From assembly GCA_024685385.1 (NCBI GenBank), contig JAIKVV010000052.1:1-64000 (forward strand): 64,000 bases of DNA, written 5' to 3'. The position numbers were made by a program, and so were the translations under genes. Of the stretch, positions 3,449 through 54,369 are shown in pieces. The DNA is from Saccharofermentans sp. Lineage in GTDB: Bacteria > Bacillota > Clostridia > Saccharofermentanales > Saccharofermentanaceae. Every line of letters starts with the position of its first letter. The first letter of the stretch is position 1. Below the pieces are notes generated by a model. That model searched no databases. It had not been told where the DNA came from and was given only the letters and a program-made list of their open reading frames with translations.

Positions 3449-4708
3449 TCAGACTATCCTGTATCTGGTGCCGCGGCCGCGCCCTTCTATCTCAACGACT
3501 CCCTTGTCTGAAAGGCCGTTCAAAAGATTGGTAACCTTGGTCTTGCCCATGTTGATGTTTCCGGATGTCATTATCTCATTTATCTGACGGCTCCTGTTTC
3601 TGCTGAGGACATTACATATCGTTGCTTCATCTTCTGTCAGGAGTCTGTGGTCTTCCATAACCGGCAAGGTAACCTTGATCATGCTGCTGTCGACCTCAAA
3701 GGAGGGTTTGCGGCTGCTGCCCGAATAGGCGTTTCTGATCCTGCGGATCCCCGTTCCGAACATCTCGATCATGCCGAGCCTGTAGAATATCCCGGCCAGG
3801 ATGGGATTTCTCAATACCGACAGGTTTCCTGAAAGATAATTCGCTTCGCTGATACCTGAAGGAAGACCACCTGCCGAAACTATCTCAACAGAGTCATCGA
3901 ACATGGAAATCTTTACGGGAGTATTGATGTCCCAGACCCTGTGTATCAGGGCATTGGCCAGCGCTTCGCGGAAGGCCTCCTCCGGAATCATCTCCACGGT
4001 CTTCCTCTTAGTTCCTTTTACCTCTTCATATTGGTAGTAGTCCTTGAACATGGCGACTGCTTCGCCAAAACTCCTGAGGATCGACTGGTCTTCCAAAGTC
4101 AGTCTCTTGGTAAAGATATTGATCGTTTCTCCGAATCTTACGATGTCTATCCCGGGAAGAGTGTTCTTATCTGCCAGTATAAAAGCCGCATTGTTATAGC
4201 CTTCTTTGTCCGAATAGAGATTCAGCGACTTCAGGATGTCACGGGTCATTTCTTCTATCCCGACCTTATCCTTCAGTTCAGCGGCCAGGACATCAAAGTT
4301 CAGATCCTGTTCTTTGGATCTAAATCCTTCGTAATCAAGGTTATCCCCTTCCATAATGAGACGCTTAAGTTCAAGTCTGTCAACTTCAATGGTAGATGTA
4401 TCGTTGCGCTTATAGGCTTTGGACTTGTAAAAATATGGCTTGCCACTGCCGGGTCTGACTTCAAGGGTTATTGTATTCCTGGAAGAGTTGACCGAAAGGA
4501 TATAGTCAGGCTGAGGCTTGATCGTATCATTTATCTTGTTCTCGATCGCAAGACATTTCTTGTCTATGTCCTTGATCCCCACGGGCTTGCCCGAGTCATC
4601 CACACCGAAGAGGATGCGGCCTCCCTCATAGTTGGCGTAGGCGCTCACTGTCTTCAGGAAAGAATCCGAATTATCGCTCTTGAATTCCAGGTGTCTGTTC
4701 TCTTTCAT
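3449..4708 (-). CDS. ATP-binding / AlbA_2 (Schlafen-like) domain protein, RecG-like COG2865 type, with C-terminal winged HTH
   Basis: MKENRHLEFKSDNSDSFLKTVSAYANYEGGRILFGVDDSGKPVGI is a typical AlbA_2 start; EALANALIHRVWD in the ATPase-like region; C-terminal helix-turn-helix. Start placed at internal Met (ORF extends to 4762). Confidence 0.8.
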   Translation of the reverse strand: MKENRHLEFKSDNSDSFLKTVSAYANYEGGRILFGVDDSGKPVGIKDIDKKCLAIENKINDTIKPQPDYILSVNSSRNTITLEVRPGSGKPYFYKSKAYKRNDTSTIEVDRLELKRLIMEGDNLDYEGFRSKEQDLNFDVLAAELKDKVGIEEMTRDILKSLNLYSDKEGYNNAAFILADKNTLPGIDIVRFGETINIFTKRLTLEDQSILRSFGEAVAMFKDYYQYEEVKGTKRKTVEMIPEEAFREALANALIHRVWDINTPVKISMFDDSVEIVSAGGLPSGISEANYLSGNLSVLRNPILAGIFYRLGMIEMFGTGIRRIRNAYSGSSRKPSFEVDSSMIKVTLPVMEDHRLLTEDEATICNVLSRNRSRQINEIMTSGNINMGKTKVTNLLNGLSDKGVVEIEGRGRGTRYRIV

Positions 4709-6143: not shown

Positions 6144-6261
6144 AACGGCACCTCCGATCTTTCATTAAATTGTTTTTCTAAACGCACATAATTTATACTT
6201 CTTTGCCTTTACAGTCAAACACAAGCTTTTACTGTATCGGCCGCATTTTTTGTCTATATTA

Positions 6262-7035
6262 TCAAAGAGCGGCATAACCCATGTAAAGCGTTCTCATGTT
6301 CTCTTCGTTCATGATGTATGTATTATCATGCCTTGCGCCTTCAAAGACCTTATTGCCGTCCTTATACACGAACAGCTGATTACGGGAGATCTCCTCCCAG
6401 GGTCCTGTCGTCAGCGGGCGGGTCGAGAAGATCACGGAGCCCTTCTTTTCGAGCTTAAAGAGCGTGCCCTCTTCGTTCTTATGGATATAGAAATATTCGC
6501 CGTCGAAGATCACGAGATTGATCTTATTATGGGGCGACAGTTCCTGCACGATCTCATCCATCAGCCAAAAGCGAATGGCCGGATCTCCGGAGCCGTCGTT
6601 TTCGCGGTAAAGGGAATTCATGCGGTCAACGATATAAAGAAGTATCCTCTCGCTGTCTGTCGTTCCCTTCTGCAGGCACTGGTAGTGCTTGAGTTCTTCT
6701 GATTCGAATATAGTGCCGTTATGCATCAGGGTCCAGTTTCTGCCTGAATCGTCTTTGGCCGTGAAGGGATGGGTGTTGTTGAAGTTGACGTCACCCACCG
6801 TTGCGCGCCTGATGTGGGCCATCATGCGGGAAGATCTGATCTCATCAGTCAGGCGGTGCTTAAGGTAGTAACTGTCCTTGGCTCTCACAGGCTCTTTTTC
6901 GACCGATATGTTGCCTTCGTCGAAAAATGCCAGGCCCCATCCGTTCGGGTGCTCCGAACTGTGATCGAAAAAGTTCTTAAGGAACCAATTAAGCTCGATA
7001 TTATGGTCAGATGTAACTGCGAACAGTTCGCACAT
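6262..7035 (-). CDS. Class II glutamine amidotransferase family protein (YafJ/EgtC-like)
   Basis: N-terminal MCELFAVTS catalytic Cys, NGWGLAFF, HIRRATVGDVNFNNTHPF, LMHNGTIFES motifs. Start placed at MCEL. Confidence 0.8.
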   Translation of the reverse strand: MCELFAVTSDHNIELNWFLKNFFDHSSEHPNGWGLAFFDEGNISVEKEPVRAKDSYYLKHRLTDEIRSSRMMAHIRRATVGDVNFNNTHPFTAKDDSGRNWTLMHNGTIFESEELKHYQCLQKGTTDSERILLYIVDRMNSLYRENDGSGDPAIRFWLMDEIVQELSPHNKINLVIFDGEYFYIHKNEEGTLFKLEKKGSVIFSTRPLTTGPWEEISRNQLFVYKDGNKVFEGARHDNTYIMNEENMRTLYMGYAAL

Positions 7036-18988: not shown

Positions 18989-19064
18989 CGAGGTGTAGCG
19001 CAGTTGGTAGCGTACGTGCTTTGGGAGCATGGGGTCGCGGGTTCGAATCCTGTCACCTCGACCA
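18989..19064 (+). tRNA. tRNA-Pro (anticodon TGG)
   Basis: CGAGGTG...CACCTCG acceptor stem, anticodon loop CTTTGGGAG, GGTTCGAATCC T-arm, encoded CCA; TATAAT at 18969-18974. Confidence 0.93.
19040..19064 (+). repeat. attL core (25 bp)
   Basis: GGTTCGAATCCTGTCACCTCGACCA, identical to 54452-54476. Confidence 0.93.
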
Positions 19065-51577: not shown

Positions 51578-52222
51578 ATGAACAAATTCAAAGATATGTT
51601 GAAATACTTCCGAGAAAAGGAAGAACTATCTCAGGCTGAACTTGCCAGTAAGATTGGAGTAAAACCCTCTACTATTGGTATGTACGAAACCGGCGAACGA
51701 CAGCCGAATTTCGAGACTGAAGAAAAAATAGCAGATTATTTCAACGTTAGTCTTGATGTTTTAAGGGGGAAAAGGGAGTACTCAGCTCAACCCATTATTC
51801 TTTTGGAAACAATCGGTAGCAAGGCCTCTTCTGTAAAGATCCCTGTTCTTGGCGATGTTGCAGCAGGCATTCCTCTCAATGCTATCGAAAATATAATCGA
51901 TTATGAGGAAATTCCTGAAGAGCTCGCTTCCCAGGGAGAGTTTTTCGGTCTGAGAATAAAGGGGGATTCAATGGAGCCCAGGATCTGCGATGGTGATGTG
52001 GTAATCGTCAGGAAGCAAGAAGATGCTGATTCCGGTGACACTATCATCGCCTGTGTAAATGGTGACTATGCTACCTGCAAAAGATTGGTTAAGCAGTCAG
52101 ACTGCATCATGCTGGTATCCTTGAATAGCAAATATGCACCCATGATATATACCAAAGATGATGTTATCAACATGCCGGTAACGATCATCGGCAAGGTGGT
52201 TGAACTCAGGGGGAAGTTATGA
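51578..52222 (+). CDS. CI-like repressor: XRE HTH plus S24/LexA-type peptidase
   Basis: LSQAELASKIGVKPSTIGMYETGERQPN; IPVLGDVAAGIP, FFGLRIKGDSMEPRICDGDVVIVRKQ. Confidence 0.9.
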   Translation: MNKFKDMLKYFREKEELSQAELASKIGVKPSTIGMYETGERQPNFETEEKIADYFNVSLDVLRGKREYSAQPIILLETIGSKASSVKIPVLGDVAAGIPLNAIENIIDYEEIPEELASQGEFFGLRIKGDSMEPRICDGDVVIVRKQEDADSGDTIIACVNGDYATCKRLVKQSDCIMLVSLNSKYAPMIYTKDDVINMPVTIIGKVVELRGKL

Positions 52223-52250: not shown

Positions 52251-52279
52251 TTGACGGGATCCTCGGGTGATTATAGAAT
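52251..52279 (+). promoter_or_regulatory. Sigma-A-type promoter for the NYN gene leader
   Basis: TTGACG (52251-52256), 17-bp spacer, TAGAAT (52274-52279). Confidence 0.7.
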
Positions 52280-52286
52280 ATACATA

Positions 52287-52371
52287 CAAAAGCTTCGGCT
52301 TTTGTTAATAAGTTTAACCGCCCAGGACAGTAAGCGCCCTAACTATCAGAGGGAGAGCAGAATTCCTGGGC
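52287..52371 (+). ncRNA. Structured 5' leader RNA of the NYN-domain gene
   Basis: UUCG-capped hairpin CAAAAGC-TTCG-GCTTTTG (52287-52304); GCCCAGGA/TCCTGGGC stem (52320-52327/52364-52371) enclosing CCCT/AGGG hairpin. Confidence 0.6.
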
Positions 52372-52393
52372 ATTACTATTTGTGGAGGTCGAT

Positions 52394-53080
52394 ATGATTA
52401 GGACAGCTATTTTAGTAGATGGTGGTTTTTACAGGAAGAGAGCCAAAGTATTAAAGGGTGAGCTTTCAGGAAAAGATCGCGCAAAAGAATTATTTCAATA
52501 TTGCATGTCGCATATAAACGGCAAGAATTACGATGGTAGCAAAAATGAAGAAAAACAAACACTTTATCGCATTTTCTATTATGATTGTATGCCATTGAAT
52601 AAGCGTTATGTCTTTCATCCTCTAAGCAAACAAAATGTAGATCTTGGTAAATCTGATTCATTTGACTGGACGGAATCAATGTTTAATGAACTTAGGAAAA
52701 CTCGAAAAGTTGCATTAAGGTTGGGAGAATTATCTACTTATTCTAATTACAATCTTAAACCTTCAGTAACAAAAAACTTGTTTTTGGGGAAGATCAAACT
52801 TGAAGATATTAAAGTGAACGATTTTGAATTAAATATCAAGCAGAAGGGCGTTGATATGAAGATTGGTATCGATATTGCTTCTCTAGCATATAAGAAGCAG
52901 GTTGATCGAATAATATTGATTGCAGGCGATAGCGATTTTGTTCCTGCAGCAAAAACGGCTCGAAGAGAAGGCATTGATTTCATATTGGATCCGATGTGGA
53001 CTAAAATAAACGACAATTTATTTGAACACATTGATGGATTAATGAGTGTTTGGCCCGATCCTTCGAAAACTACAAAATAA
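52394..53080 (+). CDS. NYN domain (PIN-like nuclease) protein
   Basis: RTAILVDGGFYRKRAK, GVDMKIGIDIASLAYKKQVDRIILIAGDSDFVPAAKTARREGIDFIL; ATG at 52394 with GGAGG RBS. Confidence 0.8.
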   Translation: MIRTAILVDGGFYRKRAKVLKGELSGKDRAKELFQYCMSHINGKNYDGSKNEEKQTLYRIFYYDCMPLNKRYVFHPLSKQNVDLGKSDSFDWTESMFNELRKTRKVALRLGELSTYSNYNLKPSVTKNLFLGKIKLEDIKVNDFELNIKQKGVDMKIGIDIASLAYKKQVDRIILIAGDSDFVPAAKTARREGIDFILDPMWTKINDNLFEHIDGLMSVWPDPSKTTK

Positions 53081-53120: not shown

Positions 53121-53214
53121 GGAATCGTGTGTACAGTGAACGAACGTACTGGCAATTCCACGTTCATTGTACCACATTCCTACATATTTTAATAACGAGG
53201 AGGAATGTACAATG
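53121..53214 (+). promoter_or_regulatory. Integrase leader with mutually exclusive hairpins
   Basis: CATTGTAccaCATTCC (53165-53180) can pair with upstream GGAAT..GTACAGTGAACG (53121-53142) or downstream GGAATGTACAATG (53202-53214, includes ATG). Confidence 0.5.
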
Positions 53215-54369
53215 TATCAACATCACGATATCCCACAACCCAAGTGGGATGCAAAAAACAAGAAATGGATCCTGTCCATTATGATCAAAGGCAGAAGAAA
53301 GCAATTCACGTCCAGCCTGAAGGGTATGCCGGGCAAACGGATCTGCCGTGAGAAAGCAGCAGAGTGGATTGAATCAGGTTGTGAAAACACGAACAATTCT
53401 ACTGTCAGCAAAGCTTTCGATATCTATATTAAGGAATACCGAGCACGATTTGGGGATAATGAGCAGCTGGTAAATATCGAGAGTGTGGGAAGAGTATTTA
53501 TTCTACCTGCTATCGGCAATTACAAATGTTCCAGGATAACTCTGGATGATTGGCAGGATATCATCAATAACGCTAAGCCTACTGTATTTGTTCGTAAGGA
53601 CGGTACTACATATCAGAGGACTGAGAAACTCTCCAAGAAATATTTGAACAATATAAGGGGTGTTATCATGACCTTCTGCAAATGGGCAGTTCCGAGGCAT
53701 TACTTCAAAGACTATCCCAATGGTTTATACATTCCATCAGGAGCTCCTACGAAGGGAAAGGAAATACTCCAACTGTCAGATATAGAGAAACTGTTTAAGA
53801 ATCCTACAGGCCTGTGGTACGAGCGAGCCCTGATGATCGAGGTCCTTACCGGATGGCGTCCGGGGGAAGTACTGGGGCTCCAGAAAAGCGATTACGACCC
53901 GGAGACCGGACTCGTCGTGATAAACAGATCCGTTAATGCCAGAGGAATGATCACTCCCGGCAAGAACAAGAACGCACATCGAGCAATGGAGTTAACTCCG
54001 GAAGTTAAGAGGATCCTCGATGAACAAATCGCAGAAACGGAATATCTTGACTCCGAATGGATATTCTGCAATCAGATCGGATGTAAGGCAAGACAGGAAG
54101 CCGTCCGAAGATGCTGGAGAGCTATAGTAAAACGCAAAGGACTCCCGGAGAATACCTCTCCCTACTCCCTGCGTCACACTTTCTACACGCATACCGAAGC
54201 ATATCTACCTGACAGAGTGATTAAATCGGTCTTCGGACATAGCGAGAAAACTGATGGACACTCAATATATGGTTCACATGTTATCTCCGAGGAAGCACAC
54301 GAGGCAGCACAGAAGCTTTCTATCACACCGATATATCAAACTGCTTTCAACAAGAAAAAAGCGGAGTAA
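53212..54369 (+). CDS. int: Tyrosine recombinase integrase
   Basis: EVLTGWRPGEVLGLQKSDYD, NTSPYSLRHTFYTH, VFGHSEKTDGHSIYGSH (R..H-R-Y motifs) adjacent to attR. Confidence 0.92.
   Translation: MYQHHDIPQPKWDAKNKKWILSIMIKGRRKQFTSSLKGMPGKRICREKAAEWIESGCENTNNSTVSKAFDIYIKEYRARFGDNEQLVNIESVGRVFILPAIGNYKCSRITLDDWQDIINNAKPTVFVRKDGTTYQRTEKLSKKYLNNIRGVIMTFCKWAVPRHYFKDYPNGLYIPSGAPTKGKEILQLSDIEKLFKNPTGLWYERALMIEVLTGWRPGEVLGLQKSDYDPETGLVVINRSVNARGMITPGKNKNAHRAMELTPEVKRILDEQIAETEYLDSEWIFCNQIGCKARQEAVRRCWRAIVKRKGLPENTSPYSLRHTFYTHTEAYLPDRVIKSVFGHSEKTDGHSIYGSHVISEEAHEAAQKLSITPIYQTAFNKKKAE

Follow-up and report, generated by a model that had tools for sequence, protein, structure and literature searches.

A covarying leader RNA conserved upstream of NYN-domain nuclease genes: a candidate RNA-antitoxin module of mobile elements

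Results

The locus

The window (the whole stretch of DNA analysed, 64,000 nucleotides of a Saccharofermentans sp. contig, JAIKVV010000052.1) contains a Clostridia prophage in which an open reading frame for an NYN-domain protein sits between genes for a CI/LexA-type repressor and a tyrosine integrase. The features of the locus are:

51578 to 52222, + strand: neighbouring gene, CI/LexA-type repressor (HTH_3 and Peptidase_S24; Pfam)
52251 to 52279, + strand: promoter of the RNA-NYN unit, TTGACG-N17-TAGAAT (consensus scan, 10/12 match), with the TTGACG -35 box at 52251-52256 and the TAGAAT box at 52274-52279
52286 to 52305, + strand: 5' hairpin ACAAAAGC-UUCG-GCUUUUGU, at the predicted transcript start (fold)
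52320 to 52371, + strand: core RNA hairpin, 52 nt (covariance model match and compensatory changes)
52320-52327/52364-52371, + strand: outer helix of the core, GCCCAGGA/TCCTGGGC (fold)
52329-52332 opposite 52360-52362, + strand: internal loop of the core, AGUA opposite GAA, loop-E-like
52334-52335/52357-52358, + strand: helix 2 of the core
52337-52340/52350-52353, + strand: helix 3 of the core
52372 to 52379, + strand: position of the U-tract of relatives, here ATTACTAT (sequence)
52384 to 52388, + strand: ribosome-binding site GGAGG (sequence)
52394 to 53080, + strand: NYN-domain putative ribonuclease, 228 aa, PHROG 5783, ATG at 52394 (Pfam, PHROG)
53212 to 54369, + strand: neighbouring gene, tyrosine integrase (Pfam Phage_integrase, 3.6e-18)

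This layout agrees closely with the original prediction, which had placed the promoter, the 8-bp helix with its AGUA/GAA internal loop and enclosed CCCU/AGGG hairpin, and the ribosome-binding site and start codon after the hairpins exactly where we found them. The UUCG-capped hairpin was also present, although it has 8 bp in our fold and not the 7 claimed. The U-tract that most relatives keep is largely missing from the window copy. Termination at this poor tract is probably weak, and the window RNA may be released by processing instead of termination, or may act only in cis. No protein antitoxin gene was found between the NYN gene and its neighbours. A tRNA-Pro gene lies elsewhere in the window (18989-19064).

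The leader RNA fold

The fold of the window leader, taken alone, could be due to chance, as its stability was only mildly unusual (z = -2.0, with 9 of 200 shuffles equally good), and single-sequence folding was dropped as proof of structure. We therefore turn to relatives of the NYN gene, gathered from contigs of viruses and of genomes and from phage records. A similar hairpin, diverged in sequence, was found directly 5' of nearly all of those collected. In an alignment of 75 seeds picked for the outer stem and the GUA (A2), all 14 consensus pairs showed double-sided changes, and 94.1% of cells were paired, compared to 71.8% in shuffles and 23-60% (maximum 60.1%) when the alignment was slid. 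Because these seeds were pre-selected for the very stem in question, a held-out alignment of loci outside the seed set (A5) was used as the fair check. In A5, 94.6% of cells were paired (75.4% in shuffles), the covariation score was 0.626 (0.248 in shuffles; 0/500 shuffles), and 243 cells carried double-sided changes compared to 58. A5 was fitted to the model, and so leans towards the model structure, while its inner helices are free of the seed selection.

A covariance model made from the leaders of NYN relatives (R1) matched the window core with 45.7 bits at 52316-52380 in a whole-genome scan. The comparative data thus settle the point that the single sequence left open and confirm the fold as real. 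Covariation and conservation, proposed with the original prediction as its check, were both found, and the evidence for a structured leader now goes beyond what had been claimed. Conservation among the unpaired bases is seen in the internal loop, with (A)GUA in its 5' strand and GA(A) in its 3' strand, and in the apical loop, with AU; GUA was present in 72 of the 91 A5 loci, and is not universal. The internal-loop bases are compatible with a loop-E/bulged-G platform, a known RNA motif.

The NYN protein

The NYN assignment proved genuine. The product matched PF01936 (44.5 bits against a cut-off of 24.2; 2.8e-11) and phrog_5783 (1.3e-87), a PHROG of unknown function. Residues D9, D154, D160, D179 and D181 were invariant across 55 relatives. 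As these are the active-site acids, the protein is expected to be an active ribonuclease. An AlphaFold2 model (pLDDT 93.8) had a single significant match among solved folds, the NYN protein VPA0982 (2QIP), while the family profile found no sequence match in the PDB. The window protein has the NYN catalytic acids and fold in common with PHROG 5783, PF01936 and VPA0982, but differs from PF01936 and 2QIP by an insertion of ~100 residues, after the first strand and helix of the fold, that is without a solved sequence relative.

A Spirochaetaceae NYN gene (L078, 4001-4675) has two stop codons and has kept its leader RNA (33.5 bits). In E. coli NZ_OZ547122.1 (L299) the annotation is inconsistent: a stretch with the same DNA sequence as the intact NYN gene of phage ev099 is split into a partial PIN pseudogene and a short NYN gene. 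Part of this stretch occurs in 386 of 5426 E. coli genomes and most of it in 73.

Linkage of the RNA to NYN genes

The RNA-NYN linkage is near-universal. R1 matched directly 5' of the NYN gene at E<0.01 in 88/95 and 69/73 loci (157/168 together), and the remaining 11 had variant hairpins at the same site (E. coli ev099, Proteus, actinobacterial loci and a few others). Variant leader hairpins were also found in distant plasmid relatives of Thermus, Aeromonas and Pseudomonas. A strong PHROG 5783 match occurred in 10 of 391 sampled Clostridia genomes, and all ten had a leader hairpin, nine by R1 and the tenth, a variant hairpin with a U-tract, by eye. No NYN gene without a leader hairpin was seen among the 168 loci and these Clostridia genomes, the hairpin being less clear in two leaders from Campylobacter plasmids. 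Within 1.2 Mb of locus sequence, a single strong R1 match lay away from an NYN start: an extra RNA copy of 68 bits (L164, 4941-5003) between an NYN gene and an integrase start, on the same contig as L284 (7456-7518). One NYN gene was preceded by a tandem RNA pair (L292, 1356-1420 and 1501-1562).

A scan of one genome collection gave more than 500 NYN loci, spanning Bacillota, Actinomycetota, Pseudomonadota, Spirochaetota, Fibrobacterota, Acidobacteriota and others. Plasmids of Campylobacter, Xanthomonas and Thermus carry the gene as well. The original prediction had placed the gene in a lysogeny module, a location between CI and int that it took to be typical for prophage-encoded defence or conversion genes. 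Relatives often have such a position, with a CI-like gene 5' of the locus in 49/150 loci and an integrase 3' of it in 42/125, both lower bounds from a simple phmmer search. The pair is not confined to prophages, as it also occurs on SaPI-like islands, plasmids and in one defence-like operon. The NYN family was present on 136 Campylobacter plasmid records, several of them conjugative by plasmid typing. On a Thermus thermophilus plasmid (L300) the NYN gene is flanked by a helicase-related gene and a gene for an N-6 DNA methylase, which it overlaps, in an arrangement suggestive of a defence operon of several genes; here too a terminator-like hairpin lies 5' of the NYN gene.

The leader as a probable separate small RNA

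In most relatives the outer helix is followed by a U-tract (a mean of 5.9 T in the 8 bases 3' of the helix, in 102 distinct relatives), a feature that had escaped the original description. A promoter score of at least 10 at a comparable position was obtained for 64 of the 102, with the predicted start ~25-30 nt 5' of the core helix in most of these. The 5' hairpin also recurs, with a sequence that varies: in 43 of 66 relatives it is more stable than 96% of shuffles of that sequence. The mean for the 5' hairpins of relatives is -6.8 kcal/mol, compared to -2.4 kcal/mol for shuffles. A structured RNA with a promoter-like sequence and a U-tract before the gene, as in type III-like systems, is thus found in most relatives, the U-tract of the window copy being weak. 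Judged by sequence, the outer helix and U-tract of most relatives would make a terminator-ended small RNA.

The family has an expressed member. Teg147 is reported as a bona fide 60-nt sRNA of S. aureus HG003 (PMC5826253), located in a genomic island (PMC5826253, PMC3053349); the available portions of these two papers state no function for it. The Rfam TEG147 model (RF03535; gathering cut-off 56.1 bits) matched the NYN leaders of L121 with 80.9 bits and of L110 with 58.3 bits. ORF inspection places L121 in a SaPI-like island of 14.6 kb that has genes for an integrase, a repressor, replication and a small terminase. On these matches RF03535 belongs to the same RNA family as the NYN leaders, and the listing of Teg147 as a separate 60-nt sRNA indicates that the core can accumulate alone. 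The window leader reached 18.2 bits, which is under the cut-off and so outside TEG147 membership, and a search of the host genus with RF03535 gave zero matches at a cut-off too strict for it. A weak similarity to a Brucella sRNA was set aside as a chance match.

RNA copies without an NYN gene

Whole-genome scans gave ~30 distinct RNA matches of at least 40 bits: 20 with an NYN gene 3' of the RNA, one with a decayed NYN gene (L200) and ~9 without. Only matches at this level were counted, because those of 28-36 bits were doubtful or false; Bacilli matches of ~28-36 bits 5' of purE (L201-L203) and weak, context-less matches (L221-L224, L264, L271-L273, L296) were set aside on these grounds. Scans with IUPAC patterns cover a small share of the family, as its helices vary, so the viral-contig orphans sample the family and do not amount to a census.

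Among the orphans, a promoter-like sequence and U-tract were kept in L207, L211, L219, L256, L259 and L274. The core of an orphan may be almost the same as that of an NYN leader. L207 differs by one base from such a leader (L118), and L219, which comes from the same genus as the window, has its inner hairpin in common with the window leader and an outer stem that differs with pairing preserved. The neighbours of the orphans are varied. By Pfam, orphans lie next to genes for an AAA_21 ATPase (L219), a PBECR3 nuclease (L211) and Phd/YoeB (L270), and near an Abi_2 gene with a small gene between (L260); four lie next to HicAB or HicB (L216 by Pfam; L212, L274 and L289 by inspection). Four others lie, by inspection, beside phage terminase or scaffold/capsid genes (L220, L261, L262, L277), and are candidates for RNA counter-defence.

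Other RNA elements were seen at two of these loci. The L260 viral contig has two RNA copies (3843-3906 and 6214-6276), each with a group I intron ~270 nt 5' in an IStron-like arrangement; one copy is 637 nt before the Abi_2 gene and the other directly before an unknown gene of ~290 codons. At L211 (2061-2131) a skipping-rope RNA lies ~500 nt 3' of the orphan, just past the PBECR3 nuclease gene.

Thus ~9 of 30 RNA copies stand without the nuclease, and no leaderless NYN gene was found. Tolerance of the RNA without the nuclease, but not of the nuclease without the RNA, is the pattern that an antitoxin and its toxin would show.

Discussion

What does the leader do? We favour an ncRNA-nuclease module of AbiF/RCd22-like (type III-like) architecture made of unrelated parts, in which the RNA would limit both the expression and the activity of the RNase, and assign this reading a probability of about 0.5. 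The leader would probably be a built-in RNA brake on the nuclease, which may act in phage defence. In this mechanism, mobile elements would carry a two-part RNA-nuclease module whose sigma-70 promoter drives a small RNA with a protective 5' hairpin and a core bearing the internal-loop platform. In most members the U-tract would end the transcript, with some transcription reading through into the NYN-fold ribonuclease gene, and such partial read-through would leave the RNA in excess over the nuclease. We infer that the RNA binds the nuclease and holds it inactive, so that it would limit expression in cis and neutralise the protein in trans. Once a phage infects, or the element is lost, the RNA supply would stop, and the longer-lived nuclease could attack cellular or phage RNA.

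Several points count against an antitoxin. The orphans before Abi_2, AAA_21, PBECR3, Phd/YoeB and HicAB genes fit a general leader or attenuator equally well, and the window copy is without a good U-tract. A physically linked RNA and protein would also co-occur under any cis-regulatory model, and the position in a lysogeny module was found, by a crude search, in under half of the loci.

If the nuclease bound or cut the hairpin in its own mRNA, its own expression would fall, and the leader would be a cis autoregulatory element with no trans role. This would account for the fixed site just before the ribosome-binding site (in the 102 relatives the start codon follows the stem after a median of 25 nt), for an RNA that is nearly always in cis to NYN, and for hairpins that diverge together with divergent NYN clades (E. 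coli, Thermus); moreover, NYN/PIN proteins are usually RNases. We nevertheless think it rather unlikely, as the orphans have their own promoter-like sequence and U-tract with no NYN gene 3', and Teg147 is on record as an sRNA in its own right. The original prediction had put the leader forward as an autoregulatory substrate or sensor. These two observations point to an autonomous small RNA, and the leader is probably an RNA antitoxin or repressor rather than only a cis autoregulatory 5' UTR.

The orphans bear differently on an infection-responsive attenuator, in which a conditional terminator would sense the state of the cell (a ligand, a change in RNA polymerase or translation arrest) and switch on a downstream conflict gene, mostly NYN. 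The same RNA does occur before AAA_21, PBECR3, HicB and Phd/YoeB genes and at an Abi_2 locus, most members have a terminator-like U-tract, and the internal loop and apical-loop AU are conserved beyond what termination needs. However, about two thirds of the RNA matches go with one protein family, for several orphans there is no gene that the RNA could switch on (L259, which faces convergent genes, and L256), and no alternative fold was identified, which together make an attenuator unlikely. That the RNA is a cofactor that guides or activates the nuclease is highly improbable: the near-invariant linkage and the large insertion without a solved relative would suit it, but the core has no variable guide segment and orphan RNAs would be useless.

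Returning to the antitoxin reading, a broader form of it, which we regard as doubtful, is that one RNA fold serves as the antitoxin of the NYN family in many phyla, and that the orphan copies in phages, prophages and toxin-antitoxin clusters are trans decoys or immunity RNAs against an NYN-armed resident. If the module works as proposed, TEG147, so far an orphan among the sRNA families of S. aureus, would gain a partner and a likely function, and RNA-controlled toxins would extend to the NYN fold. The module, with its more than 500 NYN loci, would become directly testable, and the orphan copies suggest RNA-based phage counter-defence.

Comparison with known systems

In the classical type III toxin-antitoxin systems (ToxIN, CptIN, TenpIN) and AvcID, which have roles in phage defence, an RNA is co-transcribed before a toxic enzyme with a terminator between them. 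The NYN module shares the RNA before the enzyme gene and the terminator-like element between. Its parts differ, since type III systems have an array of pseudoknot repeats and a ToxN fold or a deaminase, whereas here the enzyme is an NYN protein and there is no array, only a single core with one tandem pair (L292) in more than 168 loci. Membership of the classical type III group was rejected for the different protein fold and the lack of a repeat array.

TEG147 is the same RNA as the leaders that exceed its cut-off, but the Rfam family is narrow, with an entry that records no more than a small RNA of S. aureus, type Cis-reg; no link between it and NYN appeared in the texts found. The original prediction had called the RNA-nuclease pairing undescribed. 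The pairing is real and conserved, and the literature searched, with preprints and most subscription papers outside it, held no earlier description.

The closest likeness is to AbiF/RCd22 from a C. difficile prophage, in which a sigma-70 promoter, a structured ncRNA of ~100 nt and an intrinsic terminator precede a putative RNase gene reached by read-through (PMC12373285). By binding the toxin, RCd22 neutralises it both in cis and in trans, and in cis it also reduces expression (PMC12373285); for the NYN leader, neutralisation is proposed by analogy. The AbiF toxin is an Abi_2 HEPN protein and the toxin candidate here has an NYN fold, with Pfam giving NYN only and no Abi_2/HEPN domain in the window protein. 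AbiF has two abiF motifs, while the NYN leader usually has one core hairpin, and RF03085 (abiF RNA) matched none of the NYN-family RNAs tested, the leader being searched to E<=5. On protein fold and RNA family alike, membership of AbiF was rejected. Both are prophage-borne and have the same order of parts: a promoter, a structured RNA, a terminator, and a putative RNase gene that read-through would reach. Taken with the asymmetry between RNA and nuclease, this architecture favours an RNA-antitoxin module as the best reading of the locus.
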